Positions 26,625-51,196 of a stretch of 59,561 bases of DNA are shown here, piece by piece; positions within the stretch are counted from its first letter, which is position 1, and each line of letters opens with the position of its first letter. Both the position numbers and the translations under genes were made by a program. This stretch comes from Sedimentisphaerales bacterium (GTDB lineage Bacteria > Planctomycetota > Phycisphaerae > Sedimentisphaerales > Anaerobacaceae), in the NCBI GenBank assembly GCA_016930645.1, contig JAFGGH010000058.1, forward strand, positions 1 to 59,561, written 5' to 3'. The notes beneath the pieces are model-generated. The model was not told where the DNA came from. It did not search any database and saw only the letters and a program-made list of their open reading frames with translations.

Positions 26625-26650
26625 GTCGCCGGATACGGCGACTGCTAAAC
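26625..26650 (-). repeat. REP-like element R1
   Basis: Minus strand 5'-GTTTAGCA-GTCGCCG-TATC-CGGCGAC. Confidence 0.85.
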
Positions 26651-27199
26651 TTTTTTACAATTTGGGATTGTAACAAAATCCCATGTTTGAAGGAGCAGAC
26701 CGGAATTTGCAGGATTGGCGTTGATATACCGGATTGCGGCCTTTAGAGTATCAGTGTCATTTATAAATACCTTCCAGCAACCTCTTGTCCAAGGCGTATT
26801 TTTTAGTTTCATTTCTTTTGTAGCGGAGCCTTTTAACTGGTTTACAAGGTATTCAATTTTATATTTTGAACGCATAATAATTATATGCACGTGGTCATTC
26901 ATTATCGCACATGCAGGTACAATAATATTAAATCTGCGAACAACATTTCCAAATCCCGAAGCTACAAGCGGCCGTGTTTTATCATTAAGAAAAAACGGCG
27001 GTCGAGCCAGATTACTTTGGGATTGTACCAAAAACTTCAACAGCACATTTTTCGATGGTTGTGGATTCTGCCTGCCGTATTTAACATTTCCTAATTCTTT
27101 TAATTGTCTGGTATATACATCTTTGGAAAAAGAACCACGTGGGTCGTTAGGCAGCCAGGTACCATACGTAGTAAAAATTGCGTGATAAGCAATAATCAT
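26645..27199 (-). CDS. REP-associated tyrosine (Y1/RAYT-type) transposase 1
   Basis: YHAIFTTYGTWLPNDPRGS, ACAIMNDHVHIII (HxH), YLVNQLKGSATKEMKL. Confidence 0.85.
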   Translation of the reverse strand: MIIAYHAIFTTYGTWLPNDPRGSFSKDVYTRQLKELGNVKYGRQNPQPSKNVLLKFLVQSQSNLARPPFFLNDKTRPLVASGFGNVVRRFNIIVPACAIMNDHVHIIIMRSKYKIEYLVNQLKGSATKEMKLKNTPWTRGCWKVFINDTDTLKAAIRYINANPANSGLLLQTWDFVTIPNCKKV

Positions 27200-27214
27200 T
27201 TAATATCCAGAACC

Positions 27215-27240
27215 GTTTAGCAGTCGCCGGATACGGCGAC
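27215..27240 (+). repeat. REP-like element R2
   Basis: 5'-GTTTAGCA-GTCGCCG-GATA-CGGCGAC; inverted relative to R1. Confidence 0.85.
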
Positions 27241-27256
27241 TATTGATAACATAAGA

Positions 27257-28750
27257 TTAATCTTTTGTACCCAGGTCGTTTTTTGAGAGGTACTCATTGA
27301 TTGCCGCCGCCGCGATGCGGCCCTGGCCCATCGCTAAAATCACCGTAGCTGCGCCTAATACGATGTCTCCGCCCGCATAGACACCTTCCATAGAGGTCTT
27401 GCAGTTTTCATCGACAACGATATTGCCCCACTTATTAAATTCCAGCTCCGGCGTGGTCTGGCGAATCAGGGGATTGGCAATATTGCCGATAGCGACAATA
27501 ACAGTATCGACATCAATCGTAAATTCCGAGCCTTCAATGGGTATGGGTCTGCGCCGACCTGAATCATCCGGCTCGCCGAGCTCGTATCTGAGACACTCGA
27601 TTGCTTTTACTTTGCCTTTTTCGTCGCCGATGATTCGCTTCGGACTTTGAAGGATATGAAATTCAATGCCTTCCTCCTTTGCGTGGTGGACTTCTTCTAT
27701 ACGGGCGGGCATTTCCTTTTCACTTCTGCGATAAATCAAATACACCTTTTCAGCGCCGAGCCTTACCGCCGTCCGTGCCGAATCCATAGTGACGTTGCCG
27801 CCGCCTATTACCGCTACTTTTTTGGAAACAGCAATCGGGGTATCGGCTCCTTTGCCAAAGTCGTAGGCCTTCATAAGATTGGCGCGGGTAAGATATTCGT
27901 TGGCGCTATAGACGCCTACAAGCGATTCACCTTCGATTCCCATAAAGCGCGGCAGGCCTGCACCAACACCAATATAAACGGCATTGAAACCATCTTCTTT
28001 TATAAGTTCGTCAATTGTCCTCGTCCTGCCAACGATAAAATTGCATTTTATTTTGACACCTATCTTTTTAAGGACATCAATTTCCTTCTGTACGATGGCT
28101 TTTGGCAATCTGAATTCCGGTATCCCATAGACCATCACGCCGCCGGTCTTATGAAAGGCCTCGAATATAGTAACATCGTGTCCGGCTCTTCTTGCGTCAG
28201 CCGCTGCGACGATACCGCCCGGCCCTGAGCCGATTACTGCGACTTTCATCCCTGTATCAGACGCAACTTCGGGTATGCTCGCATTATCCTTATCGAGGTC
28301 GGCAACAAATCTTTCCAGTCTGCCGATCGAGACCGCTTTGGTCGGGTCATTGTTGCGTTTGCCGATAGTGCATGTCAACTGGCACTGTACCTCCTGCGGA
28401 CAGACCCTTCCGCAAACGGCAGGCAGCAATGAATTCTGCTTGATAATCTCGAGTGCCTTTTTATAATTGCCTTTCGCGATTTCAGCGATGAAATCTTTTA
28501 TCTCTATTCTGACCGGACAGCCCTCGATGCACGGAGCGTTTTTACACTGGATACATCGCATCGCTTCGAGCCTGGCCTGGGTCTCGGTATAGCCCGTAGC
28601 AACTTCGTTAACATTCGAGCGTCTTTCTACAGCGTCCTGGGCCGGCATATCCTGAGGCGGTATATCGAACCTATCGGAGGCCTTCAGGCCTTCGGCCTTT
28701 TCTTTTTCAAGTAGTTTATCGAGCAGTTCTTTAGCTTCTTTTTTGGTCAC
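27257..28750 (-). CDS. GltD/NfnB-like FAD-dependent oxidoreductase (NADPH-dependent glutamate synthase small-subunit family)
   Basis: CIQCKNAPCIEGCPVRIEIKDFI, VIGSGPGGIVAAADARRAGHDVTIFEA, GDIVLGAATVILAMGQGR. Confidence 0.85.
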   Translation of the reverse strand: MTKKEAKELLDKLLEKEKAEGLKASDRFDIPPQDMPAQDAVERRSNVNEVATGYTETQARLEAMRCIQCKNAPCIEGCPVRIEIKDFIAEIAKGNYKKALEIIKQNSLLPAVCGRVCPQEVQCQLTCTIGKRNNDPTKAVSIGRLERFVADLDKDNASIPEVASDTGMKVAVIGSGPGGIVAAADARRAGHDVTIFEAFHKTGGVMVYGIPEFRLPKAIVQKEIDVLKKIGVKIKCNFIVGRTRTIDELIKEDGFNAVYIGVGAGLPRFMGIEGESLVGVYSANEYLTRANLMKAYDFGKGADTPIAVSKKVAVIGGGNVTMDSARTAVRLGAEKVYLIYRRSEKEMPARIEEVHHAKEEGIEFHILQSPKRIIGDEKGKVKAIECLRYELGEPDDSGRRRPIPIEGSEFTIDVDTVIVAIGNIANPLIRQTTPELEFNKWGNIVVDENCKTSMEGVYAGGDIVLGAATVILAMGQGRIAAAAINEYLSKNDLGTKD

Positions 28751-28761
28751 TTCAGCGCTTC

Positions 28762-29625
28762 CTAAGATGATTTTTTGTCCAGTCCGATTTTACATTGGTG
28801 TTCTTTATATTGCTGATGGGCTTTTTCTTCGAGGTCTTTATAGGCACTTAGTCTTTTCATCATCAAATCGAAATTGACTAAATGCCCGTCGAACTCCGGG
28901 CCATCGACACAGACAAACTTGGCGACTCCGCCCACCTCGACTCTGCATCCGCCGCACATACCGGTTCCATCGACCATTATGGTATTGAGCGAAACGGTAG
29001 TCGGTACTTCATATTTCTTCGTAACTGCGCAGCAGAACTTCATCATTATGGCAGGGCCAATCACAAAGACGTGATTCGGCTTTGGATTTCTTTTGCATAT
29101 TTCTTCAAGCGGCACAGTAACAAGGGCCTTCCTGCCGTAAGAACCGTCATCTGTGGTAACTATCAGCTCATCACTCATCTGCTTAAATTCATCCTCGAGA
29201 ATAACAAGCTCTTTATTGCGCGCGCCGATAATCGAGATAATAATATTGCCCGCCTCTTTCAACGCAGTCGCAATCGGCAGCAGCGGCGCGTTGCCGATTC
29301 CGCCTCCGACACAGACGACCGTACCGAACTTTTCAATTTCGGTCGGCGTTCCGAGCGGCCCTACGATATTGGCTATTTCATCACCGACCTTGAGGTCGGA
29401 TAGTTCTGCGGTGGTTTTGCCGACACGTTGCCAGATTAGTTTTATCGTGCCTTTTTCGGGGTCGGCGCCGGCGATTGTAAGCGGAATTCTCTCGCTGTAT
29501 TCGTCGTTAATACAAAGAATAATAAACTGGCCCGGCTTGCGCTTTTTGGCAATCAGCCCGGCTTCGATATCAGCCGTAAAAACATCCTCTGAAAGCTGCT
29601 TTTTCGATACAATTTTATGACTCAT
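28762..29625 (-). CDS. NfnA-like FAD/NAD-binding ferredoxin-NADP reductase subunit
   Basis: CVGGGIGNAPLLPIATALKEAGN, MVDGTGMCGGCRVEVGG; adjacent to the GltD-like partner. Confidence 0.8.
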   Translation of the reverse strand: MSHKIVSKKQLSEDVFTADIEAGLIAKKRKPGQFIILCINDEYSERIPLTIAGADPEKGTIKLIWQRVGKTTAELSDLKVGDEIANIVGPLGTPTEIEKFGTVVCVGGGIGNAPLLPIATALKEAGNIIISIIGARNKELVILEDEFKQMSDELIVTTDDGSYGRKALVTVPLEEICKRNPKPNHVFVIGPAIMMKFCCAVTKKYEVPTTVSLNTIMVDGTGMCGGCRVEVGGVAKFVCVDGPEFDGHLVNFDLMMKRLSAYKDLEEKAHQQYKEHQCKIGLDKKSS

Positions 29626-29767
29626 AACACAATGCTCTCAACAAAATAATAGAAAAACCATAATTATCTTATAATAGAAGCACTATGTCAAGGTAAGGCG
29701 AAAACATCGAAATGGTAACTTAACAAACCTGTAAAAAATGTACGTCTGAAATTCTGCCGCAAGCGGA

Positions 29768-30094
29768 TTAAAGAAGCTCTTGAATAGCCTCTGTGATATC
29801 CTTTTTGCTCGTCAGGCCGACCCACTTTTTTGCTACCTGGCCGCCCTTGAACAGAATGATTGTCGGGATAGCGCTGATATTAAAATCCATCGCGCTGTCG
29901 CGTGCCTCGTCGGTATTGAGCTTGCATATTTTAGCCTTGCCGGCAAGTTCTTCGGCCACCTCTTCGAGAATCGGGGTCATCATCTTGCACGGGCCGCACC
30001 AGGGAGCCCAGAAATCGACCAGCACAGGCATATCGGAATTATGAATGGTATCATCAAATATCTCATCTGTCAGTTCAGTTACATTACCAGCCAT
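29768..30094 (-). CDS. trxA: Thioredoxin
   Basis: VLVDFWAPWCGPCKMMTPILEE. Confidence 0.95.
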   Translation of the reverse strand: MAGNVTELTDEIFDDTIHNSDMPVLVDFWAPWCGPCKMMTPILEEVAEELAGKAKICKLNTDEARDSAMDFNISAIPTIILFKGGQVAKKWVGLTSKKDITEAIQELL

Positions 30095-30165
30095 TTTGGT
30101 ATCCTTTCCTGATTTACCGATTCGTAAAAAGACATTCTATTTCTCCGCAAGCCCTCTGTCAAATA

Positions 30166-31137
30166 CTAATTGTCAGCGGTATTGTTTTCGTCTTTTTGCC
30201 GGGGTGTTGAATAGTCCTGACAATCCTGCTGTTTCCGTTCGGCGGGTATCTCGGCAATGGGTATGGTATTTTGAGAGGTTTGTACTGTTTCAATTCTTTC
30301 CTGGGGCTTGGCGCTTTGCTCAATTTCAACTATTGGTACCGGAGCCGATTCGGAGGCCTGTTCGGCAGCGGCAATCATAACTTTTTGAACGGCCTGTTCG
30401 GCGGGTTCGTCGGTTAGGGCACTTAGGTAAATAGCTCCGTTTCCTTCCTGCTGCTCGGCGCCGATGAGCGAATCTTTTATAAGCTCGAGTATCGCCAGGA
30501 AAAGGCCTACCAGGACAAGCCGGTTGTCTCTTTCGTCAAAGATACGCTCGAAAGGCATCGCGCCTTCGGTCTGAAGACGATGTAATATTTCAATCTGGTA
30601 AAGGTCGATTGGCGTATCATCGTGAATATGACTGATATCAAAAGAAGCGCCCGTAGCCTGAAGTATATTATCAAATGCTCCCAGCAGGTCCCAGACGCTT
30701 ACATTGTCCATATCCACTTCCGGCTCGGTATTGTCCTTGAGCCTGTTAATAATTGTATCGGGACGAGCGGTTCGCTGCTGCTGCTCAACGGCGCAGGCAT
30801 CCAAGAGATTTGCCGCATCCTTGAATTTTTTGTATTCGAGCAGTTGCCGAATCAGCTCTGCCCGCGGGTCCTCGAAATCCTCAGCTTCAATATCGTCAGG
30901 CCCGGCCTTCGGCAACAGCATCGCAGATTTAATTTGCATCAGGCTCGAAGCCATTACCAGAAAATCGCCTGCCAGGTCGATATCGAGGTTTTTCAGCATC
31001 TCAATATACATGATGTATTGCTCGGTTATTCGGGCAATTGGAATGTCGTATATATCGACCTCTTCCTTGCGGACAAGGTACAAGAGCAGGTCCATCGGGC
31101 CTGCGAAAACATCGAGATTTACACGGTAATCAGCCAT
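30166..31137 (-). CDS. scpA: Segregation and condensation protein A, with extra C-terminal polar tail
   Basis: VFAGPMDLLLYLVRKEEVDIYDIPIARITEQY. Confidence 0.9.
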   Translation of the reverse strand: MADYRVNLDVFAGPMDLLLYLVRKEEVDIYDIPIARITEQYIMYIEMLKNLDIDLAGDFLVMASSLMQIKSAMLLPKAGPDDIEAEDFEDPRAELIRQLLEYKKFKDAANLLDACAVEQQQRTARPDTIINRLKDNTEPEVDMDNVSVWDLLGAFDNILQATGASFDISHIHDDTPIDLYQIEILHRLQTEGAMPFERIFDERDNRLVLVGLFLAILELIKDSLIGAEQQEGNGAIYLSALTDEPAEQAVQKVMIAAAEQASESAPVPIVEIEQSAKPQERIETVQTSQNTIPIAEIPAERKQQDCQDYSTPRQKDENNTADN

Positions 31138-31398
31138 TTATTGTTCTTGTGTTTCTTCTATTTCCTGCTCTTCCTCTAATGGTTCCGGCTGCTGGGCCAG
31201 AATTTCCTTAGCCTCATCGGCCCGGCTGGACAGAACCATCAACTCAGGCCTTTCGATAAACGACAGGGCCGAATAAACATTGGACGCGTTCGCTCCGGTT
31301 ACTATGGCCTCTATACCGCAGTCGGCAAGCACCTGCCGCGCCATATCGGCCTGTATATAGTCATCGAATTTACCTACGCATACGAGTTTATCTTCCAT
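31138..31398 (-). CDS. DUF2007-like small protein
   Basis: GKFDDYIQADMARQVLADCGIEAIVTG...ELMVLSSRADEAKEIL. Confidence 0.65.
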   Translation of the reverse strand: MEDKLVCVGKFDDYIQADMARQVLADCGIEAIVTGANASNVYSALSFIERPELMVLSSRADEAKEILAQQPEPLEEEQEIEETQEQ

Positions 31399-31399
31399 A

Positions 31400-32359
31400 T
31401 TATAGTCCTACCGCCTTGCGAACTTCATCAAAAGTCTGCTTTGCGATTTTCTCGGCGCGCTCGGCGCCTTTTTCCAAAACCTCGTTTACATAATCAAGAT
31501 TGTTCTGTAATTCTTCTCTCTTTGCACGGTAAGGCTGAAAATACTCGACCAAAAGCTCGGCGAGCCGTTTCTTAACGTCGCCGTAACCGGTGCCGCCCTT
31601 GCGGTATTTATCTTCCCATTGTTTAAGCTCATCATCAGGTGCGACAAGCTTCAGCATAGCAAAGACGTTACATTTTTCGGGATTTTTCGGCTCTTCCACA
31701 GGCGTCGAGTCCGTAACAATCCGCATGACCTTTTTCTTCATACTATTTTCGGACTCGAAAATCTCAATGGTATTGCCGTAGCTTTTGCTCATTTTCCTGC
31801 CGTCAATCCCCGGCACAACCGCGACAGATTCAACTATATGCGCTTCGGGAAGTGTCAGAATCTCGCCGTATGCATTATTGAAATAGCCTGCTATATCGCG
31901 CGTAACTTCTATATGCTGTTTCTGGTCGGCCCCGACCGGAACTAAATTACTGTGAAATGCCAAAATGTCCGCCGCCTGCAATACCGGATAGGCAAACAAG
32001 CCGTGGTTGGCGCTTAGTCCCTGCGCGATCTTGTCTTTATAGCTGGTGCACCTTTGCAGAAGTCCCATCGGTGTAATACAGGAAAATATCCAGGTAAGCT
32101 CGGTTATTTCAGGCACATCCGACTGCCGCCAGAATACCGTCTTTTCAGGGTCGAGTCCCAACGCTAAATAATCCAGCGCTACATCGATTATATTCTGAGC
32201 CAATTTTTCAGGGTCCGGATTACCAGTCAGGGCGTGATAATCGGCAATGAAATAAAAACAATCGTTTTCGGCTTGTAGCTGCAAATGCTGACGCATCGCC
32301 CCGAAATAATTGCCTATATGAAGCTTACCCGAAGGCTGAATACCCGACAATACTCTCAC
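31400..32359 (-). CDS. trpS: Tryptophanyl-tRNA synthetase
   Basis: SGIQPSGKLHIGNYFGA, DGRKMSKSYGN. Confidence 0.95.
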   Translation of the reverse strand: MRVLSGIQPSGKLHIGNYFGAMRQHLQLQAENDCFYFIADYHALTGNPDPEKLAQNIIDVALDYLALGLDPEKTVFWRQSDVPEITELTWIFSCITPMGLLQRCTSYKDKIAQGLSANHGLFAYPVLQAADILAFHSNLVPVGADQKQHIEVTRDIAGYFNNAYGEILTLPEAHIVESVAVVPGIDGRKMSKSYGNTIEIFESENSMKKKVMRIVTDSTPVEEPKNPEKCNVFAMLKLVAPDDELKQWEDKYRKGGTGYGDVKKRLAELLVEYFQPYRAKREELQNNLDYVNEVLEKGAERAEKIAKQTFDEVRKAVGL

Positions 32360-32549
32360 TGACTGCTCCTGTTACTTTAACCACGAACGAACACGAATAA
32401 ACACCAAATTTTAACCGCGGATTACACGGATTTTCACGGATTTTTAAAAGAATTTTTCTTAAAGTATGAAGATACAAAGATTAAGGGAAATTGTCAAGAT
32501 GATTACCTCTGTAGTACCAAAGACAGGATAACAGGATTAACGAGATAAT

Positions 32550-32575
32550 ATTTAGCAGCGGTCGGCACGACCGCT
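32550..32575 (+). repeat. REP-like element R9
   Basis: 5'-ATTTAGC-AGCGGTCG-GCA-CGACCGCT. Confidence 0.8.
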
Positions 32576-32600
32576 TATTTAGAACAACGTTCTTCGTGGG

Positions 32601-32628
32601 GTTCCGTCTTCTGTTTTCTGTCCTCTGT
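32601..32628. repeat. Heptad repeat (NNTCYGT x4)
   Basis: GTTCCGT CTTCTGT TTTCTGT CCTCTGT. Confidence 0.8.
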
Positions 32629-32739
32629 TTTCCCCTTGTCTTTGATGGGAATTAGGATATTATTAATGGCTGATTATGCAGATAAAAAAAGAAAATACGG
32701 CAAACATAAAACTTAAGGTGACATAAAACGGAGGTTTAA

Positions 32740-33021
32740 ATGAACCTAAAAGAATATGTCAAAAAAAGCCTTATTGATATAACCGAGGGAGTTTTTGATG
32801 CAAAAAACCAAGCGCCGTTGTCGATAGCTCAGGGCATAGTCGAGGGCATAAAAATCACTGCACCTCAATATGTTTCTTTTGAAGTTATGATAACAATTAA
32901 TAAAGAAGGTGGTGGAGAAATAAGCGTTTTATCTTTCGGGGCCAAGGGTGGTATGTCTTCACAGAATGTGAATAAAATTACTTTTCAAGTACCTGTATAT
33001 TTCAATGCAAAGGGAAGATAG
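32740..33021 (+). CDS. Small conserved-looking hypothetical protein
   Basis: ATG-started ORF with plausible mixed alpha/beta composition. Confidence 0.5.
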   Translation: MNLKEYVKKSLIDITEGVFDAKNQAPLSIAQGIVEGIKITAPQYVSFEVMITINKEGGGEISVLSFGAKGGMSSQNVNKITFQVPVYFNAKGR

Positions 33022-33040
33022 TGCCATTCGGGTTGAAAAA

Positions 33041-33493
33041 ATGGCAAATGTGATGGGATATATGGTTACTTGGACCACGTATGGCACATGGCTTCAGGGC
33101 GATAAAAGAGGTTATGTAAAAAATGGTAAAATATTGCCACCAAACGATAATTTGTTACAGGCCAATAAAGCGAACAAAAAGGGTAATACCATTAAGCTTT
33201 CAAAACAACAAAGAAAAATTGTTCATAACGCAATATTAAAAGAATCCGAAATAATCGGTCAAAAAATACTTGCACTAACTGTCTGTTCGAATCATGTTCA
33301 TCTTGTACTTGACTATTTTCCAAAACCAATATCGAATATTGTCGCGTATTATAAAAAGGCCGGACGATTAGCGTTGAAAGAAACGGGGCTTACCGGAAAG
33401 ATTTGGGCGAAGGGATACGACAAAAGGTTTTGTTATGATGAAATGACATTGAACAGAAGAATTAAGTATGTAAAAAGTCATAATACTGCATAA
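33041..33493 (+). CDS. REP-associated tyrosine (Y1/RAYT-type) transposase 2
   Basis: MVTWTTYGTWLQGDKRGYVKNGKIL, VCSNHVHLVLDY (HxH), YYKKAGRLALKE, GYDKRFCYD; ATG at 33041 preferred. Confidence 0.85.
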   Translation: MANVMGYMVTWTTYGTWLQGDKRGYVKNGKILPPNDNLLQANKANKKGNTIKLSKQQRKIVHNAILKESEIIGQKILALTVCSNHVHLVLDYFPKPISNIVAYYKKAGRLALKETGLTGKIWAKGYDKRFCYDEMTLNRRIKYVKSHNTA

Positions 33494-33548
33494 AACCCTG
33501 GGTAAAACCCAGGGCTAAATATTTAGCCCCCAGTTTCACTGGGGGTTC
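33494..33548. repeat. Tail-to-tail pair of REP-like elements R3 (minus) and R4 (plus)
   Basis: CCCTGGGT-AAA-ACCCAGGG then CTAAATATTTAG then CCCCCAGT-TTC-ACTGGGGG; junction GGGCTAAATATTTAGCCC is a perfect 18-nt palindrome. Confidence 0.9.
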
Positions 33549-34227
33549 AAAAAAAAATGCGCGACGCGATACGCGTAAATATATATTTTATCAGATTTTT
33601 TAATCCTCGTTTATCAGGCGGCGGGAAATTCAGACACGCGAACTCGCCGTGATACTTCCTTGCGGCCTCGTCATAGCATTTCGCCGCCTCAATCTCATCG
33701 TTGAAATATCCGAGATGAATACTTTTTCTGTTTACTTTTATCGCCGCTCCCCATTTTCTGTGCTGTTTGTGCCAGCTAACACCTTTATAAATCGAACTGC
33801 ATTTTTTCTTACTTTTTGAACGGTTTTTCGCGTTCTGCATTCTTGTGACTATTCGAAGGTTTGCCCTTCGGCTGTCCAAAGCGTTGCAATTGATATGGTC
33901 AACAAACAATTTAACTTTGGTTTTGGCACTTTCGGTTTCAAGCTCATCGGCCAAAATCTGTCGGTGCAAGTGTATAGAAAGATGGCCTAAAGTTTTCCCC
34001 GACAATCTAATAGAACGGCAACTACCATATTCACAGTCAGGCAACCAGACATATTTTGAAAGCTCGGCGTAATCGGCCTGGTCAACTATCGCGCATTTAT
34101 TCGAATTGGCTAATTTTATCCTTCTGAAACTATAGCCGTACCAGAGCCAGCGCATAAAAAGCAATGGAGTAACAATTATTCGGTCGAGAAAAACCGGAAC
34201 GTGGATTGGAAGGGAATATTTTATCAA
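33547..34227 (-). CDS. HNH endonuclease with AP2-like DNA-binding domain (homing-endonuclease type)
   Basis: VDHINCNALDSRRANLRIVTRMQNAKNR; YKGVSWHKQHRKWGAAIKVNRKSIHLGYFNDEIEAAKCYDEAA. Confidence 0.85.
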   Translation of the reverse strand: MIKYSLPIHVPVFLDRIIVTPLLFMRWLWYGYSFRRIKLANSNKCAIVDQADYAELSKYVWLPDCEYGSCRSIRLSGKTLGHLSIHLHRQILADELETESAKTKVKLFVDHINCNALDSRRANLRIVTRMQNAKNRSKSKKKCSSIYKGVSWHKQHRKWGAAIKVNRKSIHLGYFNDEIEAAKCYDEAARKYHGEFACLNFPPPDKRGLKNLIKYIFTRIASRIFF

Positions 34228-34613
34228 GGCGGTTTAAGTGTTAAAAATCGGCCAAGTTTGCGATATTAGATTTGTCCTCTTCCTCTTAATATATGAGCAA
34301 CTGCTGTGCCAAAAACAGGAAACTTTTAATTAAAATCTGTCCTGTTTTTCAGGCTGAAATTAAGGTTTTTTTGTTGCCTGTTCGATGTCACAAAGAGCGC
34401 AGCGGGACAGGCAGGCAGAACCTGTCAAATTGGCAGAAAATGATACACCTGTCCTGGAACAGGGCTTTTGGCTTTTTGCCGGTTGTAATGAAATAACCAA
34501 GAGCATCTTACATTACTATTGAATTATCGCTTCATATTCGAAAAGAAATATTATAATTTTTGGTTTTAGCTTGCTTAAAAAACAGTAATAATGTATAATT
34601 CAGGGTTTTGTAC

Positions 34614-34631
34614 TTGTGAACTCAATCACAA
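34614..34631. promoter_or_regulatory. CRP/FNR-superfamily-like operator palindrome
   Basis: TTGTGA-ACTCAA-TCACAA. Confidence 0.6.
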
Positions 34632-34644
34632 TGTGTACGTAAGG

Positions 34645-34650
34645 TATAAT
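34645..34650 (+). promoter_or_regulatory. Candidate -10 box upstream of the hydrogenase operon
   Basis: TATAAT, 50 bp before the ATG at 34700. Confidence 0.45.
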
Positions 34651-34699
34651 AAGGCCGTACAGGCCTTCAAATACGTAAATTTTAGTAGGATTTATAAAT

Positions 34700-35734: not shown

Positions 35735-35778
35735 GAGAATAAGAAAATTACGTTTCGTACAGATAAGGAGCGAAACAA

Positions 35779-36618: not shown

Positions 36619-36620
36619 AG

Positions 36621-39369: not shown

Positions 39370-39372
39370 AAC

Positions 39373-39428
39373 ATTTAGCCTGCGGTTTTCCATGTCCGCC
39401 ATAGCGTTGACGACGGCGGAACCGCAGG
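39373..39428 (+). repeat. REP-like element R8 with nested TCCGCC/GGCGGA hairpin
   Basis: 5'-ATTTAG-CCTGCGGTT ... TCCGCC(39395)...GGCGGA(39415) ... AACCGCAGG. Confidence 0.8.
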
Positions 39429-41699: not shown

Positions 41700-41720
41700 C
41701 ATTTTGGCGAAGCCAAAATG
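41700..41720. repeat. Perfect hairpin CATTTTGGC-GAA-GCCAAAATG
   Basis: 9-bp stem, 3-nt loop. Confidence 0.8.
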
Positions 41721-42252: not shown

Positions 42253-42314
42253 GACCCGCCGTGATCCGTCTTCGCCCTAAAAGGGCTACGCCGGACAGGA
42301 ACGGCGGGCTAAAT
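42253..42314 (-). repeat. REP-like element R5 with nested hairpin
   Basis: CCCGCCGT ... TCCGTCTTCGCCC-TAAAA-GGGCTACGCCGGA ... ACGGCGGG-CTAAAT. Confidence 0.8.
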
Positions 42315-42466
42315 ATAAAAACAAAAAACTGCGCCATCCGCGTCAATTCGTGGTTAATTTTTCCGTGTTTTCAGCGTAATCTGCGATTAAAAATTTCTCT
42401 GTGTTTTCTGTGTTCTCTGTGGCTATAATAAATAATAACTCTGTGGTAAAAAATGAAAAGAAATTC

Positions 42467-42493
42467 CCCACGGCACAGGTCCGTGGGCTAAAC
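42467..42493 (-). repeat. REP-like element R6 abutting the start of the hydrogenase protease gene
   Basis: CCCACGG-CACAGGT-CCGTGGG-CTAAAC. Confidence 0.85.
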
Positions 42494-42496
42494 AAT

Positions 42497-42958
42497 ATGA
42501 AAAAAGAAACAGTGGTAGTCGGGCTTGGAAATGTTTTGATGGCTGATGAGGGCATCGGCTGTGCCGTAGTCGAGCATTTTTCCAAACAGGCGGGTAAATA
42601 TCCCAATGTTGAATTCACCGATATCGGTACGGGCGGAATGGCGCTTTTACATCTTATAGCAGGACGCAAAAAGGCGATTCTTATAGATTGTGCGAAGATG
42701 GGGACAAGGCCCGGGACGCTCAAAAGATTTACGCCTGAAGACGTAAAAACCATCAAGCAACTCTGCCAGTTCAGCCTGCACGACAGCGATGTTATGAGAG
42801 TAATCGAGATGTCGCGGCAGTTAGGGCAATGCCCTGAGAGTATAGTGATTTTCGGTATCGAGCCGGGCCGCATAGAGCCCGGTCGTCAGCTCAGCACTAC
42901 CCTAGCGGGCAAGCTCGCCGATTATATCGCCGCTGTCGCAGAAGAGCTGAAAGGGTAA
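42497..42958 (+). CDS. Hydrogenase maturation protease (HycI/HyaD family)
   Basis: VVVGLGNVLMADEGIGCAVVEHF, LIDCAKMGTRPGTL; ATG at 42497 preferred over the ORF-track start. Confidence 0.88.
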   Translation: MKKETVVVGLGNVLMADEGIGCAVVEHFSKQAGKYPNVEFTDIGTGGMALLHLIAGRKKAILIDCAKMGTRPGTLKRFTPEDVKTIKQLCQFSLHDSDVMRVIEMSRQLGQCPESIVIFGIEPGRIEPGRQLSTTLAGKLADYIAAVAEELKG

Positions 42959-43186
42959 CTACGCCCTGCCGATGGATTTCAGATACCTCTTGCTCTTTTT
43001 GATGCCCATTCTTGATGCTTTTTTCTTAACGGCATCGACCTTGCGTCCTACCTTTTTTGCGATGTCCGCTGTTGATATGTCAGCAAATTGCTTTTTAAGG
43101 ATGTTGAGGTCTTTGGCGTTCCAGGCGCCTTTGGCTGCTTTTCTCCGGGCGGGTTTCTTTTTCGCGGCTCTTTTTTTCTTAGCCAT
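42959..43186 (-). CDS. Small basic protein: Lys/Arg/Ala-rich tail plus SANT/homeodomain-like HTH
   Basis: MAKKKRAAKKKPARRKAAKGAWNAKDLNILKKQFADISTADIAKKVGRKVDAVKKKASRMGIKK. Confidence 0.7.
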   Translation of the reverse strand: MAKKKRAAKKKPARRKAAKGAWNAKDLNILKKQFADISTADIAKKVGRKVDAVKKKASRMGIKKSKRYLKSIGRA

Positions 43187-43383
43187 TTTCTTTACCTCCT
43201 TTCCCGGTAAAGGGAATCTCTTAATAATATAATCAATCTATTGCGTACCCGTGACAATGTCAAGTGTTTTTATGAAATAATATGGTTTTGAGAGACATAT
43301 TTTGTCATATTTACAAAATAATCAAAAAAAGCGTCATATTGCGTACTTTACACGTAGGTTAAACACTATATACTCATAACTAT

Positions 43384-45171
43384 ATGGCAGAAGATAAAAA
43401 TAGTTCGGTTGGAATTGTAAAGACAGAGACTATTCGGCTGGTTGAGAGGGACAGACCGCTCAAATTAGCCTGCGGCAAGACACTTGCGCCGATTGATGTC
43501 GCTTATGAGACTTACGGAAATCTCAACGAGGCTGGTGATAATGCGGTCTTGATTTGCCATGCGCTTAGCGGAAACGCACACGTTGCGGGAGTGAATAGTC
43601 CGGAAGACAAGCAGCCCGGCTGGTGGGACTCAATGGTTGGGCCTGGCAAGGGCATAGATACGAATAAATATTTTGTTATCTGCTCGAATTTTTTGGGCGG
43701 GTGCAGCGGGACAACAGGGCCATCCAGTACGAATCCGGAGACGGGCAGGCCTTACGGCCTGGATTTTCCGGTGATTACCATTGCCGATATGGTCAAGGTT
43801 CAAAAGCTGCTGCTGGATAAACTCGGAGTCAGACAGCTATTGGCGGTATTAGGCGGTTCGATAGGCGGGATGCAGGTATTGCAGTGGGCGATTGATTATC
43901 CGGATTTCGTCAGGAGCGTACTGCCTATAGCGACAACGAGTCATCTTGGCGCCCAGTCGATAGCGTTTGACGCGGTAGGCAGAAACGCGATTTTAGGCGA
44001 CCCGAACTTTTCACAAGGTCAATATCATTCCGGGTCCGGACCGGATAAAGGCCTGGGGATTGCAAGGATGATTGGACATATCACTTATCTTTCCGAGCCT
44101 GGCATGCGCGAGAAATTCGGCAGGCGTCTCAGGAGCAAGGAACATTATACTTATGATTTCGACCCTGAATTCGAGGTCGAGACATATCTGGATTACAAGG
44201 GACAGAGTTTTGTCGAGCGGTTCGATGCCAACAGCTATCTATATATAACCAAGGCTGCCGATTATTTCGACCTAAGTAAAGATTACGGGAGCCTGGTAAG
44301 CGCATTTGCAAATGTTAAAAGCCGTTTTCTTGTTATTAGTTTTTCGAGTGACTGGCTGTTTACGCCCGCTCAATCCGAAGCAATAGTCAATGCACTGGCA
44401 GCCAATAAAAAAGATGTCAGCTATGCCAATATAGAATCCTCATACGGCCATGACGCGTTTCTACTGGAAGCGAATAGGTTGAGCAGACTCATTTGTTGTT
44501 TTTTAAAGGCTACACATCAGCCTGATTCGGCTTGTAAGTGCGCTCTTACAGATGAGCGTCGGCCTGCTGAAGCAGCTTCTCGAAGCCGTGTTGATTATGA
44601 ATTGATTGAGTCTTTAATTGAACCACAAAGCAGGGTGCTGGATGTCGGCTGCGGTGACGGGAAACTGCTTGCGCATTTGAAAACTGATAAAAGTATCCGC
44701 GGTGAAGGGATTGAACTTGATTACAGCTCGATGCTGGACTGCATCTGCCAGGGCTTGCCGATAATTCAGTACGATATCGAACGCGGATTAAGCGCCTATG
44801 AAGACAAGAGTTTCGATGTGGTAATACTTTCGCGGACTTTACAGACCCTTAAGGATCCTGAAAAAGTTTTTACAGAGCTGCTTAGAGTCGGCAAGAAAGT
44901 AATAGTGAGCTTTCCTAATTTCGGGCATTGGCGGTGTCGATTACAATTGCTTGTAAAAGGGAAGGCTCCGGTAACACGCCAGTTACCATTCGGATGGCAC
45001 GATACGCCGAATGTCCATGTTCTGTCTCTGAAAGATTTCGACCAGTTCTGCAAAAGGCTCGGAGCTACTGTAGAGAAGCGCATACCATTGATAGAGTATC
45101 GTCAGAGTCCTGTCCGTTTGGCACCCAATTTATTCGCTGAGCAGGCTATCTACGTGACAAGTAAAAGTTAA
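43384..45171 (+). CDS. metX-metW: Homoserine O-acetyltransferase fused to MetW-type methyltransferase domain
   Basis: Met[16 protein letters not shown] ... [11 protein letters not shown]; Met[31 protein letters not shown] ... [15 protein letters not shown] ... [19 protein letters not shown]. Confidence 0.92.
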
Positions 45172-45515
45172 GCATCCTTCTGCCCTGCCGGTGCGACGCA
45201 ATAGATATAAATCAGCGGGTCGTTACCTGTGTTTTTAATATCGTGCTGAGTTTGAGGCGGTATATAGGCAATTTTGCCTACGCCTGCCGGTAAAGGCTCA
45301 GAGCCTTCAATTAACGCGGTGCCGGTGCCACTGAGGAAAATCAGCATCTCCTCGTTTTGGCTTGTGCTGTGCAGGCCGCAGCTTTCGCCCGGTTCGAGAT
45401 AGACCTTTCCGGCTTTCATTCCGTAGCTTTGCGTATTTTTATCCAGCAGCCTTTGGAATTCTTTTGTATCTTCGATTTCAAGCGCAAAAGGCTTAGGTTT
45501 CATATAAATCTCCAT
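45168..45515 (-). CDS. Cupin-domain protein
   Basis: [34 protein letters not shown] ... [14 protein letters not shown]. Confidence 0.85.
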
Positions 45516-45650
45516 TTTTCAAGAACATACAGACCGCAACAGCTAAACAATTTTTCTTGATTTTTTCAATAAAATTTATTTGACGTAGTAGCACTAATTT
45601 AATATTGTTATGCGCAGATAACTTATTACTTTTTTAAGGATTATTTATAA

Positions 45651-46889
45651 ATGGAAAAAAGGGGATTGATTACACTGATTGCTGTTACACAACTTTTATG
45701 GACATGCCTGGCTGTTCACGACCAAAATGACATCAGGGAACACCACAGGCAGCTTTCTGAAAAAGGAATCGAGTTTGGATTTGGCGTAACGAATATTTAT
45801 CAGCAAAATGTTCGAGGCGGTCTGAGCAAGCACCGCAAGGCAGGCCGTTTTTCCGGCAGTTATGATATCGAATTAACCTTAGACGCAGAAAAACTGTTTC
45901 AACTGGAAAACGGAATATTCTTTCTGCACGCTGAAGGCTCGTGGTCGAAGTCGGGCGGGATTGACGGGCCATCGGCAGGCAGCGTTTTCGGTGTAAACGG
46001 TGACGCCGCGGGCAGACGTGCGTTCGACCTGACCGAGTTCTGGTATGAACAGCCGATATTCTTCGACAACCTGCTGATACGGCTGGGAAAATTCGATATC
46101 ACAGGCGGCTTCGAATGTCATGGGTGTCCGGTATCTTTTGACGGCAGTTTATTCGCCAATGACGAAGTTACACAATTCTTAAACAGCGCGTTAGTAAACA
46201 ATCCATCTATTCCGTTTCCTGATAACGGTCTCGGCGTCATACTGCATTACGATGTCGATGACTTCTGGTATATATCAGCTTCAGCGATGGATGCGCAAAG
46301 CGATGTAAGAGAGACGGGCTTTAGAACGACATTTCATGATGAGGATTATTTTTTCTATATCCTCGAAACCGGTATCACTCCGGAATTCGGTTCTGCTGAT
46401 AAGCCCTTACAAGGAGCATATCGAGTTGGGCTGTGGAATGACCCACAGCCGAAAGCCAATTCAGATAATGATGCGGCGGGTAAGTATTATAGAGATGATA
46501 CAGGTTTTTATATCAGCTGCGACCAAATGCTAAAAAGGGAAAACACCGAAGACGACCAGGGATTAGGGGCGTTTTTCAGATACGGTTATGCCCCGAGCAG
46601 GGCCAACGATGTTACGCAATTTTTCAGCTTCGGGTTTCAATATGCAGGTTTATTCGAGGGCAGAGACGAAGATGTTCTGGGAGTCGGATTCGCGCATGGG
46701 ACAGTAGCAGATACGGCAAAGATGACATATAACGATGATTATGAAGCCGTTACGGAATTGTATTACAATGTTAAGGTAACAGATTATTTGAATATCAGTC
46801 CGAGCGTACAATATGTAATGAACCCGGGCGGCAGCCAGGATGTAAGTGACGCTGTAGTTTTTGGTGTTCGAGCACAAATAACTTTCTGA
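45651..46889 (+). CDS. OprB-like carbohydrate-selective-type porin
   Basis: FQLENGIFFLHAEGSWSKSGGID...GDAAGRRAFDLTEFWYEQPIFFDNLLIRLGKFDITGGF; C-terminal beta-strand ending in F. Confidence 0.8.
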   Translation: MEKRGLITLIAVTQLLWTCLAVHDQNDIREHHRQLSEKGIEFGFGVTNIYQQNVRGGLSKHRKAGRFSGSYDIELTLDAEKLFQLENGIFFLHAEGSWSKSGGIDGPSAGSVFGVNGDAAGRRAFDLTEFWYEQPIFFDNLLIRLGKFDITGGFECHGCPVSFDGSLFANDEVTQFLNSALVNNPSIPFPDNGLGVILHYDVDDFWYISASAMDAQSDVRETGFRTTFHDEDYFFYILETGITPEFGSADKPLQGAYRVGLWNDPQPKANSDNDAAGKYYRDDTGFYISCDQMLKRENTEDDQGLGAFFRYGYAPSRANDVTQFFSFGFQYAGLFEGRDEDVLGVGFAHGTVADTAKMTYNDDYEAVTELYYNVKVTDYLNISPSVQYVMNPGGSQDVSDAVVFGVRAQITF

Positions 46890-46922
46890 AACGTAAATCC
46901 ATAATAAAAAGGAGATTACATT

Positions 46923-47975
46923 ATGCATATGGCAAACGAATTACTGTCGGTTCCGGTTGCGGGGGCGACTTTAACGATAGCAGGCGGGGCACTGGCTTTT
47001 ATTACACGCCGGGCAAGGAAGATTATTGACGCAGATAAACTTGCCCTTATGGGAATTCTCGGCGCGTTTGTCTTTGCCGCTCAAATGGTGAATTTTCGAC
47101 TGCCCGCTATGCCGGGTACAAGCGGTCATCTTGTTGGTTCTGTTTTACTATCTATTGTGCTTGGTCCGACCCTTGGGGCAATTGTAATTTCTTCGGTCAT
47201 TATCATTCAGTGCCTGATTTTTCAGGATGGCGGACTGCTTGCGCTCGGCTGTAATATTATCAATATGGGAATTATTCCATGCTACGCCGGCTATTATATA
47301 TTCAAAACTATAAAAGCCGAATCCTGGCAGAACACCAGAACTTATGTTGCGGTTATCATCGCGTGTGTCGTATCCCTGGAAATCGGTGCGGCACTTGTCC
47401 CGATAGAAGCGGCAATGTCAGGTGTCCTGCTTGTACCAATGTCAACATTTTTGGTTACTATGCTCGGCGTCCACGCAATTGCAGGAACGATTGAAGGTAT
47501 CGTTACAGCCGCTGTTCTCGGTTATCTGTTGCAGGTCAGGCCTGATATAATCGGTGATTCTTTGCACGGCAAAATCAGGCTCAGTAAACCGGCTGTTATC
47601 GCTTCTCTTTCAATTTTCACGGTGATTACCGCCGCAGGTTTGTCGCTGCTGGCATCGGGAATGCCGGACGGACTCGAATGGAGCTACGCTGAGCGGCCTG
47701 ACCAGAGCGACTTCGAGACTACTATTGCCAACGAAAGTACCGTGATACCAAAAGTGGATGCATTTCAGGAAAAATTTTCCCTGATGCCGGATTACACCGT
47801 AAGAAGCTCCAAACTTGGTCAAACAGCTCAATTGGAATACGAGCCTGCCGCGGCGTGGACGAGCATGGCAGGATTAATCGGTGCTTTTTTGACTATGGGC
47901 TTCATCTGGCTGTTTGCTCAAATTATAAGAAAAAGGTCAAATTCAAAGCCGAATCCTGATACAATAGCCGCATAG
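46923..47975 (+). CDS. CbiM/NikM substrate-binding transporter subunit fused to NikN-like (PDGLE) domain
   Basis: LGAFVFAAQMVNFRLPAMPGTSGHLVGSVLLSIVLGPTLGAI...; PDGLEWSYAE. Confidence 0.88.
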   Translation: MHMANELLSVPVAGATLTIAGGALAFITRRARKIIDADKLALMGILGAFVFAAQMVNFRLPAMPGTSGHLVGSVLLSIVLGPTLGAIVISSVIIIQCLIFQDGGLLALGCNIINMGIIPCYAGYYIFKTIKAESWQNTRTYVAVIIACVVSLEIGAALVPIEAAMSGVLLVPMSTFLVTMLGVHAIAGTIEGIVTAAVLGYLLQVRPDIIGDSLHGKIRLSKPAVIASLSIFTVITAAGLSLLASGMPDGLEWSYAERPDQSDFETTIANESTVIPKVDAFQEKFSLMPDYTVRSSKLGQTAQLEYEPAAAWTSMAGLIGAFLTMGFIWLFAQIIRKRSNSKPNPDTIAA

Positions 47976-48043
47976 CCGGTCCGAGAGGTATTTTATCCTC
48001 CAGAGTTATTTTTTTAACTGTGATTAGTTAATACGGTTTTGGA

Positions 48044-48820
48044 ATGCACCACGCACATATCGATAAATTCGCGTATCAGGATTCGCCTGTCCACAGGCTC
48101 GATGCGAGAGTCAAATTTATAGTAATGGTTATATTCATGGCCTTTGTCATTTCGCTGCCGCCGAATTCGGTGGTCATTTTGAGTTTATATGCGATAGGAC
48201 CTTTTGCCGTACTGGTTTCGGGGCGGATTCCCCTGAGATTCGTATTCAAGCAAATAATAATTGTCAGTCCCTTCATACTTGTATTGGCACTATCCTGTCC
48301 ATTTTATGACAGAACCCCGGTATCGGTATCCTTCGGGCCTTTATCGTGGCAGATAACAGCAGGCTGGCTGAGATGTTGTAATATCCTTGCCAAGTTTACC
48401 GTAACTATGATGTGCATTATCGCGCTGGTTTCAACAACCCGGTTCACTAATTTACTGGAAGGCCTCGGCAAACTTGGAATACCAAAAATTCTGACAGCAC
48501 AGCTTGGTCTTTTATACAGGTATATTTTCGTGGTTATCGACAAAGCCCAGCACATGCTGCTGTCACGCAGGGCGAGGTCTTCTAATTATCTGGGATTTCG
48601 CAATGAACTTAAGACCGCTTCTGCGATGATAGGCAGTTTGTTTATTCGAAGCATCGATACCGCCGAAAATATCAGTATAGCTATGCAGGGACGAGGATTT
48701 AATCAAAAATGGCGCAGCCTGTCACAAATGCATACTGGATGGGCTGATTATCTTTTTATAGTATTATCAGCTATTTACATTTTGGCTCTGGAGCTTTTCG
48801 CAAAACCGGTACTAACCTGA
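48044..48820 (+). CDS. CbiQ/NikQ ECF-type transporter transmembrane subunit
   Basis: SPVHRLDARVKFI, LGLLYRYIFVVIDKAQHMLLSRRAR, AMQGRGF. Confidence 0.88.
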   Translation: MHHAHIDKFAYQDSPVHRLDARVKFIVMVIFMAFVISLPPNSVVILSLYAIGPFAVLVSGRIPLRFVFKQIIIVSPFILVLALSCPFYDRTPVSVSFGPLSWQITAGWLRCCNILAKFTVTMMCIIALVSTTRFTNLLEGLGKLGIPKILTAQLGLLYRYIFVVIDKAQHMLLSRRARSSNYLGFRNELKTASAMIGSLFIRSIDTAENISIAMQGRGFNQKWRSLSQMHTGWADYLFIVLSAIYILALELFAKPVLT

Positions 48821-48825
48821 ACGAT

Positions 48826-49557
48826 ATGACTTCCGCAATAGAAATCAAAGATTACTCATACGCTTATGCAGACGGGACAGCCGCGCTAAAGGATATAAGT
48901 CTTATTATTGAGCACGGGCAAAAAGTTGTGTTAATAGGTCCGAACGGTGCCGGCAAATCAACACTTCTATTGGCAATGGCTGGCTTTGTTAAAGGGACAG
49001 GTAAAATATTTGTTGATGGTATCGAGGTAAATAAAAAGAACAATAAAAAAATCCGAGGCCTAATCGGCTGTTGCGTGGAAAATCCCGAAGACCAGTTGTT
49101 TATGCCCACCATATACGAGGATGTGGCTTTCGGGCCGCTTAATCTTCGTCTTGAAAAAGACGAGGTAAAAGCCCGAACAAGGCAGGCTCTTGAAACTGTC
49201 GGCCTCTGGTCTCTTGCCGACAAACCGCCTCATCACCTTTCGGCAGGCCAGAAACGCGCCGCCGCCATTGCTACCATACTTTCTATGAAACCAGGCATTA
49301 TCACTCTTGATGAACCTACAAGCAGTCTGGACCCCACATGCAGAAATAAAATTCTTCGAATTATCAGAGAACTGCCGCAAACTATTATTGTTGCTACCTG
49401 CGATATGAACTTTGCTGCGGAATTCGCCGAACACGCTGTTTTAATAGATAACGGCCAAAAAACAGCGGAGGGAGAACCTCAAAAAATTATGGCAGAGGAG
49501 CAATTAATGACCTCTCACGGGCTGGAAGTGCCGTGGAAATACCGCAAAAGCATCTGA
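48826..49557 (+). CDS. CbiO/NikO ATP-binding subunit
   Basis: GPNGAGKSTLL, LSAGQKRAAAIATILSMKPGIITLDEPTSSLDP. Confidence 0.92.
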   Translation: MTSAIEIKDYSYAYADGTAALKDISLIIEHGQKVVLIGPNGAGKSTLLLAMAGFVKGTGKIFVDGIEVNKKNNKKIRGLIGCCVENPEDQLFMPTIYEDVAFGPLNLRLEKDEVKARTRQALETVGLWSLADKPPHHLSAGQKRAAAIATILSMKPGIITLDEPTSSLDPTCRNKILRIIRELPQTIIVATCDMNFAAEFAEHAVLIDNGQKTAEGEPQKIMAEEQLMTSHGLEVPWKYRKSI

Positions 49558-49611
49558 ACTATGAACTCAGTTGAAATCCAGTCCTAAACTTTTTTATATC
49601 ATAGAGACTTC

Positions 49612-49839
49612 TTAAAAGCTCAACAAATACGCGCATATCTCAAGCGGAGCGGCAAAACAACTGTGCGGAGTTTCACCAATGACTATCAACTGCATGCAAA
49701 TAGCATCCAGCTTTTCCATACCATATGGCGAGGATGTAAAAGAATCCGCACTTTCTACTTCAGCAAACCTGTCTGCTACAATTTCACAGGCCTGTTTAAT
49801 CTGTCTGAGAACTTCCTTTGCTAACTATCTGTCAAACAT
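49612..49839 (-). pseudogene. Decayed HepT-like gene
   Basis: MFDR*LAKEVLRQIKQACEIVADRFAEVESADSFTSSPYGMEKLDAICMQLIVIGETPHSCFAAPLEICAYLLSF*: in-frame TAG at codon 5, HepT similarity lost after IGE. Confidence 0.8.
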
Positions 49840-50122
49840 ATATGCCGTCTCTGACTATATGCTGCTTCAAAACCGGATTCATCTTTTCCCGCAGCCGTAC
49901 AATATCCACAGTTATATGAAGGGTCTGCTCAATATCCTGCTTAATATCGGCTAATAAAAAAATGTCCGGTTTCTCAAGCTCAACAAAAATATCGATATCG
50001 CTGTTGTCATCAAAACTACCTTTAGCAACCGAACCAAACAGGCCAAGGGCCTTAATCCCATATTGTTGCTGATGAGATTGTTTGTAATCTTCCAGTACCG
50101 TTAAAATCTCTTCTTTTCCCAT
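49832..50122 (-). CDS. MNT-type nucleotidyltransferase
   Basis: ALGLFGSVAKGSFDDNSDIDIFVELEKP (GSX10DXD). Confidence 0.85.
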   Translation of the reverse strand: MGKEEILTVLEDYKQSHQQQYGIKALGLFGSVAKGSFDDNSDIDIFVELEKPDIFLLADIKQDIEQTLHITVDIVRLREKMNPVLKQHIVRDGIYV

Positions 50123-50372
50123 ATTATTACGGCTTTAAATAATCCTCAGTAATAAAAGTCATATCATTATCTAAAATTTGCCTCAAAGCAACTTAAACTA
50201 TACCAAATTATACATTTTTATACAATTAATAAGCCATCAAGGAGGGGAAAAAGATTTTTATAAACGAACCTGAATATTTCTTGTATACAGTATTATTGAT
50301 TTGGCGGCTTTATTTGAGTAAGATAACCTATAATTAAGTAAGGTTAATTTTTGTTGCAGGCTGGAGATTATC

Positions 50373-51134
50373 ATTAACGCTAAGAAGCTAAAAGAACTTC
50401 TGGAGCAAGTTAGACAAGGCGAAATCAGTCCTGACCAGGCTTTAGAAAAGCTTCGGCATCTGCCTTTCGAGGATTTGGGCTTTGCGCGAATCGACCATCA
50501 CAGAAATATCCGCAGAGGCTTTCCTGAAGTTATATATTGCCCCGGCAAAACAACCGAGCAAATCGTTGGTATTTTTGTGGCACTTGCCCAAAAGGGTAAT
50601 AACGTTTTAGCCACCCGCGCGGGAAAAGAAATTTACGACGCGCTTGTTGCCACAGGCAAATATGACAATTTGAAATTCGAGGAATTATCAAAAGCTATAT
50701 ATCTCGAACAGGAGAAACTGCCCCTTTCAAAAACAGCTATCCCGATAGTAACAGCAGGTACCGCTGATTTGCCGGTTGCGATGGAGGCAAAAGTAACCGC
50801 TGAAATAATGGGACAAAAAACCGAGCTGATTTGTGATGTTGGCGTGGCAGGCCTACACAGACTGTTCGATAAAGTAGAACAGCTCCAGACCGCAAACGTA
50901 CTTATAGTAGTAGCGGGTATGGAAGGAGCACTGGCGAGTGTAATCGGCGGGCTTGTCAGTTGCCCGGTTATCGCAGTGCCCACAAGTGTCGGATATGGGG
51001 CAAACTTCAAGGGCATATCGGCGCTGTTGACTATGCTGAACAGTTGTGCATCAGGCGTATCCGTTGTTAATATCGATAATGGATTTTCGGCAGGTGTGAG
51101 CGCCAGCCTGATAAACAGAAAGTGTAAAAATTAA
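50373..51134 (+). CDS. larB: LarB (nickel-pincer cofactor biosynthesis, AIR-carboxylase-like); probable ATT start
   Basis: INAKKLKELLEQVRQGEISPDQALEKLRHLPFEDLGFARIDHHRNIRRGFPEVIYCPGKT ... VAGMEGALASVIGGLVSCPVIAVPTSVGYGA. Confidence 0.88.
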   Translation: MNAKKLKELLEQVRQGEISPDQALEKLRHLPFEDLGFARIDHHRNIRRGFPEVIYCPGKTTEQIVGIFVALAQKGNNVLATRAGKEIYDALVATGKYDNLKFEELSKAIYLEQEKLPLSKTAIPIVTAGTADLPVAMEAKVTAEIMGQKTELICDVGVAGLHRLFDKVEQLQTANVLIVVAGMEGALASVIGGLVSCPVIAVPTSVGYGANFKGISALLTMLNSCASGVSVVNIDNGFSAGVSASLINRKCKN

Positions 51135-51149
51135 CAACAAAAATACACC

Positions 51150-51196
51150 ACCCCTCAAGCAGCCGCCTGAGGCATCTAAAGGCTTGAGGGCTAAAT
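51150..51196 (-). repeat. REP-like element R7 between larB and larE
   Basis: CCCTCAAGC ... GCTTGAGGG-CTAAAT. Confidence 0.8.

Follow-up and report, generated by a model that had tools for sequence, protein, structure and literature searches.

The stretch of DNA considered here, referred to throughout as the window, is a contig of 59,561 nucleotides (JAFGGH010000058.1; C83 in our numbering) from a Sedimentisphaerales bacterium of the phylum Planctomycetota, whose draft genome (GCA_016930645.1) comprises 2.18 Mb in 103 contigs, is 77.9% complete and has nine Y1_Tnp matches. The window holds nine short hairpins, R1 to R9, preceded on the 5' side by TTTAG, together with two genes for small Y1 transposases, RAYT-A and RAYT-B. 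The question that they raise is whether the hairpins are repetitive extragenic palindromic (REP) elements, and whether the two genes encode the REP-associated tyrosine transposases (RAYTs) that serve them.

Hairpins and transposase genes in the window

The nine hairpins were first listed in an initial annotation, and a mechanical scan recovered each of them at its coordinates and on its strand (Table 1), with perfect stems of 7-9 bp. The two genes that the same annotation had called RAYT-type are both Y1/HuH genes by Pfam, by motifs and by fold. RAYT-A is flanked by R1 and R2, both with their foot, the unpaired bases 5' of the stem, towards the gene. In RAYT-B no NP follows the tyrosine.

Table 1. 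Transposase genes, hairpins and nested palindrome of the window (CM, covariance model)
Feature	Position	Strand	Remarks
RAYT-A gene, 184 aa, Y1/HuH transposase (MNDHVH, PWTRGCW, YINANP)	26645..27199	-	Pfam Y1_Tnp 30.9 bits, cut-off 23
R1, REP-A	26625..26650	-	foot GTTTAGC provides the TAG stop codon of RAYT-A; CM R1 34.5 bits
R2, REP-A	27215..27240	+	16 bp upstream of RAYT-A, inverted relative to R1; CM R1 36.5 bits
R9, REP-A, intergenic	32550..32575	+	CM R1 38.7 bits
RAYT-B gene, 162 aa, Y1/HuH transposase (SNHVH, IWAKGYD, YVKSHN)	33005..33493	+	Pfam Y1_Tnp 25.9 bits
R3, core REP-B	33494..33520	-	begins immediately after RAYT-B; CM R2 45.6 bits
R4, core REP-B	33521..33548	+	adjoins R3 foot to foot (tail-tail pair); CM R2 46.2 bits
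R8, REP-B variant, second palindrome in loop	39373..39428	+	CM R2 33.5 bits
Inner palindrome TGTCCGCCATAG...GACGGCGGA within R8; stand-alone copies elsewhere	39393..39420	+	
R5, REP-B-like, TGTCCGGCGTAG... palindrome in loop	42255..42314	-	CM R2 25.3 bits
R6, REP-B-like, 7-bp stem, ACCTGTG loop	42467..42493	-	loop shared with REPs at other RAYT-B paralogs
R7, REP-B-like, long-loop type	51152..51196	-	loop type common to two REPs flanking a RAYT-B paralog on contig C66

The comparison with shuffled sequence that the initial annotation had proposed shows TTTAG hairpins to be far in excess of chance. The window contains nine cases in which TTTAG precedes a stem of 8 bp or more, whereas 30 dinucleotide-shuffled versions of it averaged 0.37 and never exceeded 2. 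Eight of the nine are elements listed in Table 1 and the ninth arises by chance overlap within R5; R6, with its 7-bp stem, falls outside the count. Among all 1024 pentamers, TTTAG also ranks top directly 5' of window hairpins (8 occurrences, mean 0.21). A count of all pentamers made across the sample, with no spacing between pentamer and hairpin, was led by A-rich feet and failed to bring out TTTAG beyond the window; what proved decisive was the restriction of the foot count to the neighbourhoods of RAYT genes, described below. An Rfam search of the window matched no family.

Two REP families

The hairpins had originally been taken as a single family with an invariant TTTAGC flank. The common TTTAG flank and fold stand, but the elements divide into two families, REP-A (R1, R2 and R9) and REP-B (R3-R8), and the flank reads as an unpaired TTTAGC in REP-A, whereas in REP-B only TTTAG is unpaired and the C is part of the stem. 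Nor is the flank invariant everywhere: at some RAYT paralogs only the TTAG or TAG of the foot remains. At the loci of RAYT relatives the REP-A unit consists of GTTTAGC, an 8-bp stem and a GNA loop, while the REP-B unit consists of [A/G]TTTAG, an 8-9-bp stem starting with CC, a short paralog-specific loop and a terminal TT. These are palindromes with 7-9-bp stems and core units of 25-30 bp, within the 20-40 bp that define REPs, and they carry an unpaired TTTAG(C) foot 5' of the stem, invariant among the aligned copies of either family, that also dominates the unbiased count given below. Stems and loops differ and sort by RAYT family, as had been suggested.

The stems of REP-A covary. Across 24 distinct copies the TTTAGC is constant (the foot was among the criteria by which copies were collected, and it is for this reason that the unbiased hairpin count near RAYT genes carries weight). 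The REP-A stem is 100% paired, and two-sided changes are found at six of the eight pairs, 36 such changes in all, giving a covariation score that none of 500 shuffles reached. Sequence conservation ends at the boundary of the REP unit.

The elements also occur close together and inside one another. Of 44 pairs of neighbours less than 100 bp apart, 30 share the same orientation (p=0.02) and 13 combine a REP-A with a REP-B. The long loops of R5 and R8 are secondary, as each holds a second palindrome (TGTCC...CGGA). This palindrome, TGTCCGCCNTAG...GGCGGA (its end also given as CGAAGGCGGA), is found in stand-alone copies and in the REP-B loops of R8, L021 and L203, and R5 holds a variant of it; copies of TGTCCGCCNTAG...CGAAGGCGGA lie at window positions 39393-39420, at L021 14336-14363, in L203 and at L019 18470-18495. 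One palindromic element thus apparently inserts into the loop of another, REP-B hairpins included. Loops similar to that of R6 are found at the RAYT-B paralog loci L106, L114, L115 and L087.

The RAYT proteins

Both proteins have the attributes of a RAYT (TnpAREP), being encoded by short, low-copy genes with a HuH and single-tyrosine Y1 domain that are flanked by cognate REPs. The AlphaFold models have a mean predicted local distance difference test score of 77 for RAYT-A and 88 for RAYT-B. The best fold match of RAYT-A is the E. coli TnpAREP 4er8 (E=6.2e-6), and that of RAYT-B is IS200 2f4f (E=5e-6), with IS200/ISDra2 transposases and 4er8 also matched; the global superposition is loose (template modelling score about 0.5) and supports the fold family only. 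The motifs of the RAYT-A family are [DN]H[VI]H, W[TAS] and Y[IV]xxNP, those of the RAYT-B family are NH[VI]H, W[TAS] and Y[VI]xxH, and at the motif level these HuH/W/Y sets match none of the 12 Y1 subclasses in Table 1 of PMC6006769. A tree of 52 proteins places RAYT-A in a clade of its own (support 99), distant from RAYT-B. On the RAYT-B side there is a series of feet, with TTTAG/xTTAG in RAYT-B, xTTAG in the L121-L128 group and CAAG/AAAG in remoter groups, along which the final two bases stay AG, as in GTAG; the tree labels that give this series show only feet ending in AG or AGC, and the hairpin list behind them is unfiltered.

Some other genes touch on these. A third RAYT type (MPNHVH...YVLTNP), with its own REP-like palindromes, is found in L024 (G000:C61, about 16030-16720, minus strand) and also in L001; it sits in frame within the valS reading frame to give an open frame of 1222 aa, and a 1372-aa frame with a similar match occurs in the relative G074:C203. 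In the window, a homing-endonuclease-like gene (33547-34227, minus strand; HNH_3 at 27.2 bits, AP2 below threshold) lies beside RAYT-B and adjoins R4, and a 176-aa open reading frame overlapping R6 (42343-42873), with no Pfam match, is probably spurious.

Association of REPs with RAYT genes

The link between the hairpins and the RAYT genes was followed both locally and by genome. For the former, all hairpins with a stem of at least 8 bp and a loop of at most 12 near the RAYT genes of relatives were listed together with their feet, no motif being assumed. Near RAYT-A, 27 of 30 hairpins have the foot TAGC (TTTAGC), and near RAYT-B the foot is TTAG in 43 of 51. TTAG or TAGC is therefore found in 70 of the 81 hairpins near RAYT genes, and the foot of the GTAG superfamily, GT[AG]G, is not their foot, GTRG being seen at one RAYT-A locus only; these hairpins do not have the foot of the CGTC superfamily either. 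Hairpins are moreover concentrated around the genes, with 2.41 per kb near RAYT-A against 0.08 away from it in the same loci (about 30-fold), and 2.04 against 0.24 for RAYT-B (about 8-fold). The bacterium's own genome was sampled through 367 kb of stretches, the window included, plus covariance-model searches, and TAG-footed hairpins adjoin seven of its eight free-standing Y1 genes, the exception being class-3-like. A class-3-like Y1 gene of this genome (YVIYGQ), without TTTAG hairpins, lies in L003 (G000:C43 30503-30946), about 2.3 kb from a RAYT-B paralog.

For the association by genome, covariance models of both families were applied to 80 genomes, the bacterium's own and 79 relatives. REP-A was found in 31 of the 80, with a highest count of at least 83 copies, and REP-B in 40, with a highest count of at least 94; the own genome has 18 copies of each. 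RAYT-A homologues, 53-73% identical, occur in 11 relatives, while RAYT-B matches occur in 42 of the 80 genomes, its named relatives being Planctomycetota, chiefly metagenome-assembled genomes (MAGs) of Phycisphaerae/Sedimentisphaerales. Among the 79 relatives, and with statistics that ignore phylogeny, REP-A is present in 11/11 genomes with RAYT-A versus 19/68 without (p=6e-6), REP-B in 24/29 with RAYT-B versus 15/50 without (p=6e-6), and REP-A in 26/32 with any RAYT versus 4/47 without (p=3e-11). The association with RAYT genes on which the initial annotation had staked its reading is thus seen at both levels.

Dispersal and mobility

Although the sequence examined is 84% coding, 128 of 146 elements are intergenic. 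Within the genus g46 the number of REP-A copies ranges through 0, 14, 20 and 40, a spread that argues for recent change. In L179 a REP-A unit plus extra sequence lies inside a conserved coding stretch and is missing in the 80%-identical homologue L205, whereas the other pairwise comparisons of absence sites came down to differences in tandem copies. Mobility of the REPs is supported by their dispersal, by the copy-number differences and by this one presence/absence site. A palindromic repeat, ATTCCCGCGCAGGCGGGAATCC, adjoins the REP-A insertion (L179 13681-13740), and both it and REP-A are missing from the L205 stretch.

Strand bias

The orientation of the elements was analysed for 100 REP clusters in 2.2 Mb of loci from G000, G009, G010, G015, G016, G027, G034, G048, G070 and G073. 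The foot lies on the C-rich strand in 66 of the 100, and in 37 of 45 where the absolute skew is at least 0.06 (p=1.5e-5; four thresholds were tried, all with the same direction), most clear-skew clusters coming from two genomes, G010 and G015. When the skew was taken from the flanks only, 39 of 47 clear-skew clusters had the foot on the C-rich strand (p=6e-6), versus 54% for bare TTTAGC, and 19 of 22 did so by contig half. Relative to co-directional neighbour genes the orientation is random (31/64).

A foot-strand bias that is independent of gene direction suggests coupling to replication. DnaA genes were not located at the skew switches, so that the direction of replication is read from GC skew alone; if this has its usual sign, the foot strand is on the leading template. 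Our guess at an origin for the bias is that REPs facing the opposite way are cut out at the fork and disappear.

Interpretation and alternatives

The explanation that best accommodates these observations, to which we assign a probability of about 0.85, is that these short hairpins are non-autonomous units of the REP type, which owe their spread to cognate Y1 (HuH single-tyrosine) RAYTs, with two RAYT lineages each having its own REP. It starts from things observed directly, namely the elements with their bounded unit, the covariation in REP-A, the dispersal, the linkage to RAYT genes and the presence or absence of a unit at one site. RAYTs are known to act on folded single-stranded REPs, and A3G4 of GTAG is thought to select a CT cleavage site (PMC8266576). 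By this model RAYT-A would serve GTTTAGC-[8 bp]-GNA-[8 bp] and the RAYT-B paralogs [A/G]TTTAG-[8-9 bp starting CC]-loop-TT, with the enzyme binding the folded single strand and reading the TTTAG foot. TTTAG does occupy the place of GT[AG]G in classical REPs, as first proposed, and because the AG of GTAG is kept, cleavage at CT is predicted: the last two bases of the foot would pair with and select the site, as in the IS608/REP-Mb model. With TTAG as the guide, the predicted cleavage abuts the stem in REP-B and lies one base away from it in REP-A. Replication forks would supply the single-stranded DNA for cleavage and strand transfer, and the strand bias would follow from this.

Four observations sit uneasily with this explanation. 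In some genomes REP-A or REP-B is present although no cognate RAYT was detected (19 genomes for REP-A), perhaps through loss of the gene or incomplete MAGs. The NCBIfam model REP_Tyr_transpos (NF047646) scores both proteins below its cut-off of 80, at 46.7 bits for RAYT-A and 23.8 bits for RAYT-B. There is a single informative absence site (L179/L205), with a junction not clean enough for the target site to be read. Finally, the strand bias is opposite in sign to that of IS608, whose active strand lies on the lagging-strand template.

Hairpins that are mostly intergenic could have another origin, and the elements might be intrinsic terminators or mRNA-stability hairpins that share TTTAG by chance, as would fit with R3, R8 and R7 lying just after a stop codon and with the TT that follows REP-B. 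Yet no long T tract follows the hairpin, the best-conserved part lies 5' of the stem, the elements are oriented without regard to neighbouring genes (31/64 again), hairpins stand on both sides of RAYT genes, and copy number tracks RAYT content, all of which makes this origin very improbable, even if the hairpins may have a secondary role in RNA. We hold it to be just as improbable that they are the ends or remnants of IS200/IS605 insertion sequences. The protein fold family is the same, and IS200/ISDra2 transposases are among the best fold matches of RAYT-B; but a genome has only a few RAYT genes, which have diverged from one another (paralogs 41-51% identical) rather than being high-copy and near-identical, isolated hairpin units with paralog-specific stems predominate, and no tnpB was noticed adjoining the RAYT genes, no systematic search for tnpB having been made.

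It is also unlikely that the elements are neutral relics of an ancient spread that merely persist, the RAYT genes being kept for another purpose. Genomes with a REP and no detected RAYT, and the low copy number in the own genome (18 + 18), would be in keeping with such persistence, whereas it speaks against this reading that copy numbers differ widely inside a single genus, that most copies have perfect stems, that genomes contain copies identical to each other and that an element is missing at a homologous site. Returning to REPs spread by cognate RAYTs, a more far-reaching proposal is tentative and in our estimation doubtful: that two distantly related RAYT lineages of one phylum with the same TTTAG foot, whose REPs insert side by side at forks with the foot on the leading template, opposite to IS608, form a REP system that is coupled to the fork and follows a recognition code and a strand rule of its own.

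RAYT-associated REPs have been recognised by GT[AG]G as their signature, and the automatic searches in the literature rely on it, so that TTTAG families would be missed. A foot altered in its first two bases with AG kept, in two protein lineages and with graded relatives (TTTAG, xTTAG, CAAG, AAAG), constitutes a natural experiment on guide reading and cleavage-site choice by HuH enzymes, and makes the rule that connects enzyme and tag accessible to direct tests. The strand bias, being independent of gene direction, can be used in genomes to ask whether the movement of REPs is coupled to replication.

Comparison with known systems

The closest parallels are the GTAG REPs with group 2-4 RAYTs of E. 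coli, Stenotrophomonas and cyanobacteria (subclasses 2.2, 2.4, 2.5, 2.7 and 2.8), which share with the window families a dispersed, intergenic short hairpin with an unpaired 5' foot ending in AG, a flanking low-copy Y1 gene and a separate REP for each gene. Their foot, however, is GT[AG]G rather than TTTAG(C), and the window proteins join W[TAS] with YxxxNP (A) or YxxxH (B), a combination in no subclass of Table 1 of PMC6006769. Class 3 TnpAY1 of Planctomycetes and Acidobacteria (PMC6006769) resembles them in its planctomycete hosts, W[TA], non-GTAG foot and high-copy hairpins, but has a CnGA foot and Y----Q in place of TTTAG and Y...NP or Y...H, which sets the window families outside class 3. 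Subclass 2.6 of Bacteroidetes likewise has atypical flanking secondary structures without GT[AG]G, but its proteins differ from those of the window in having WQ, YIH[QN]NP and a C-terminal serine motif, and its foot is undefined in PMC6006769. With IS200/IS605 (IS608, ISDra2) there is a common HuH-Y1 fold, guide bases 5' of a hairpin and an orientation tied to replication, yet those are autonomous insertion sequences with two ends, whose active strand is on the lagging template (PMC5371812); the foot strand of the TTTAG elements is the C-rich one.

Feet other than GTAG were thus already on record, as CnGA in class 3 (PMC6006769), in the atypical structures of subclass 2.6 and in the CGTC superfamily, and no report of a TTAG or TTTAGC REP foot was found in the open-licence papers searched. 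The undescribed REP/RAYT lineage with its own recognition motif that was initially envisaged is largely upheld, but it amounts to two lineages, has precedents among non-GTAG feet, and its recognition by the enzyme is a prediction. By anatomy and association the hairpins are REPs with RAYTs, while the GTAG, CGTC and class 3 definitions all fail, and the TTTAG-foot families, which are borne out far outside the window, are a new variant of the REP/RAYT system within a diversity of feet known before in outline.

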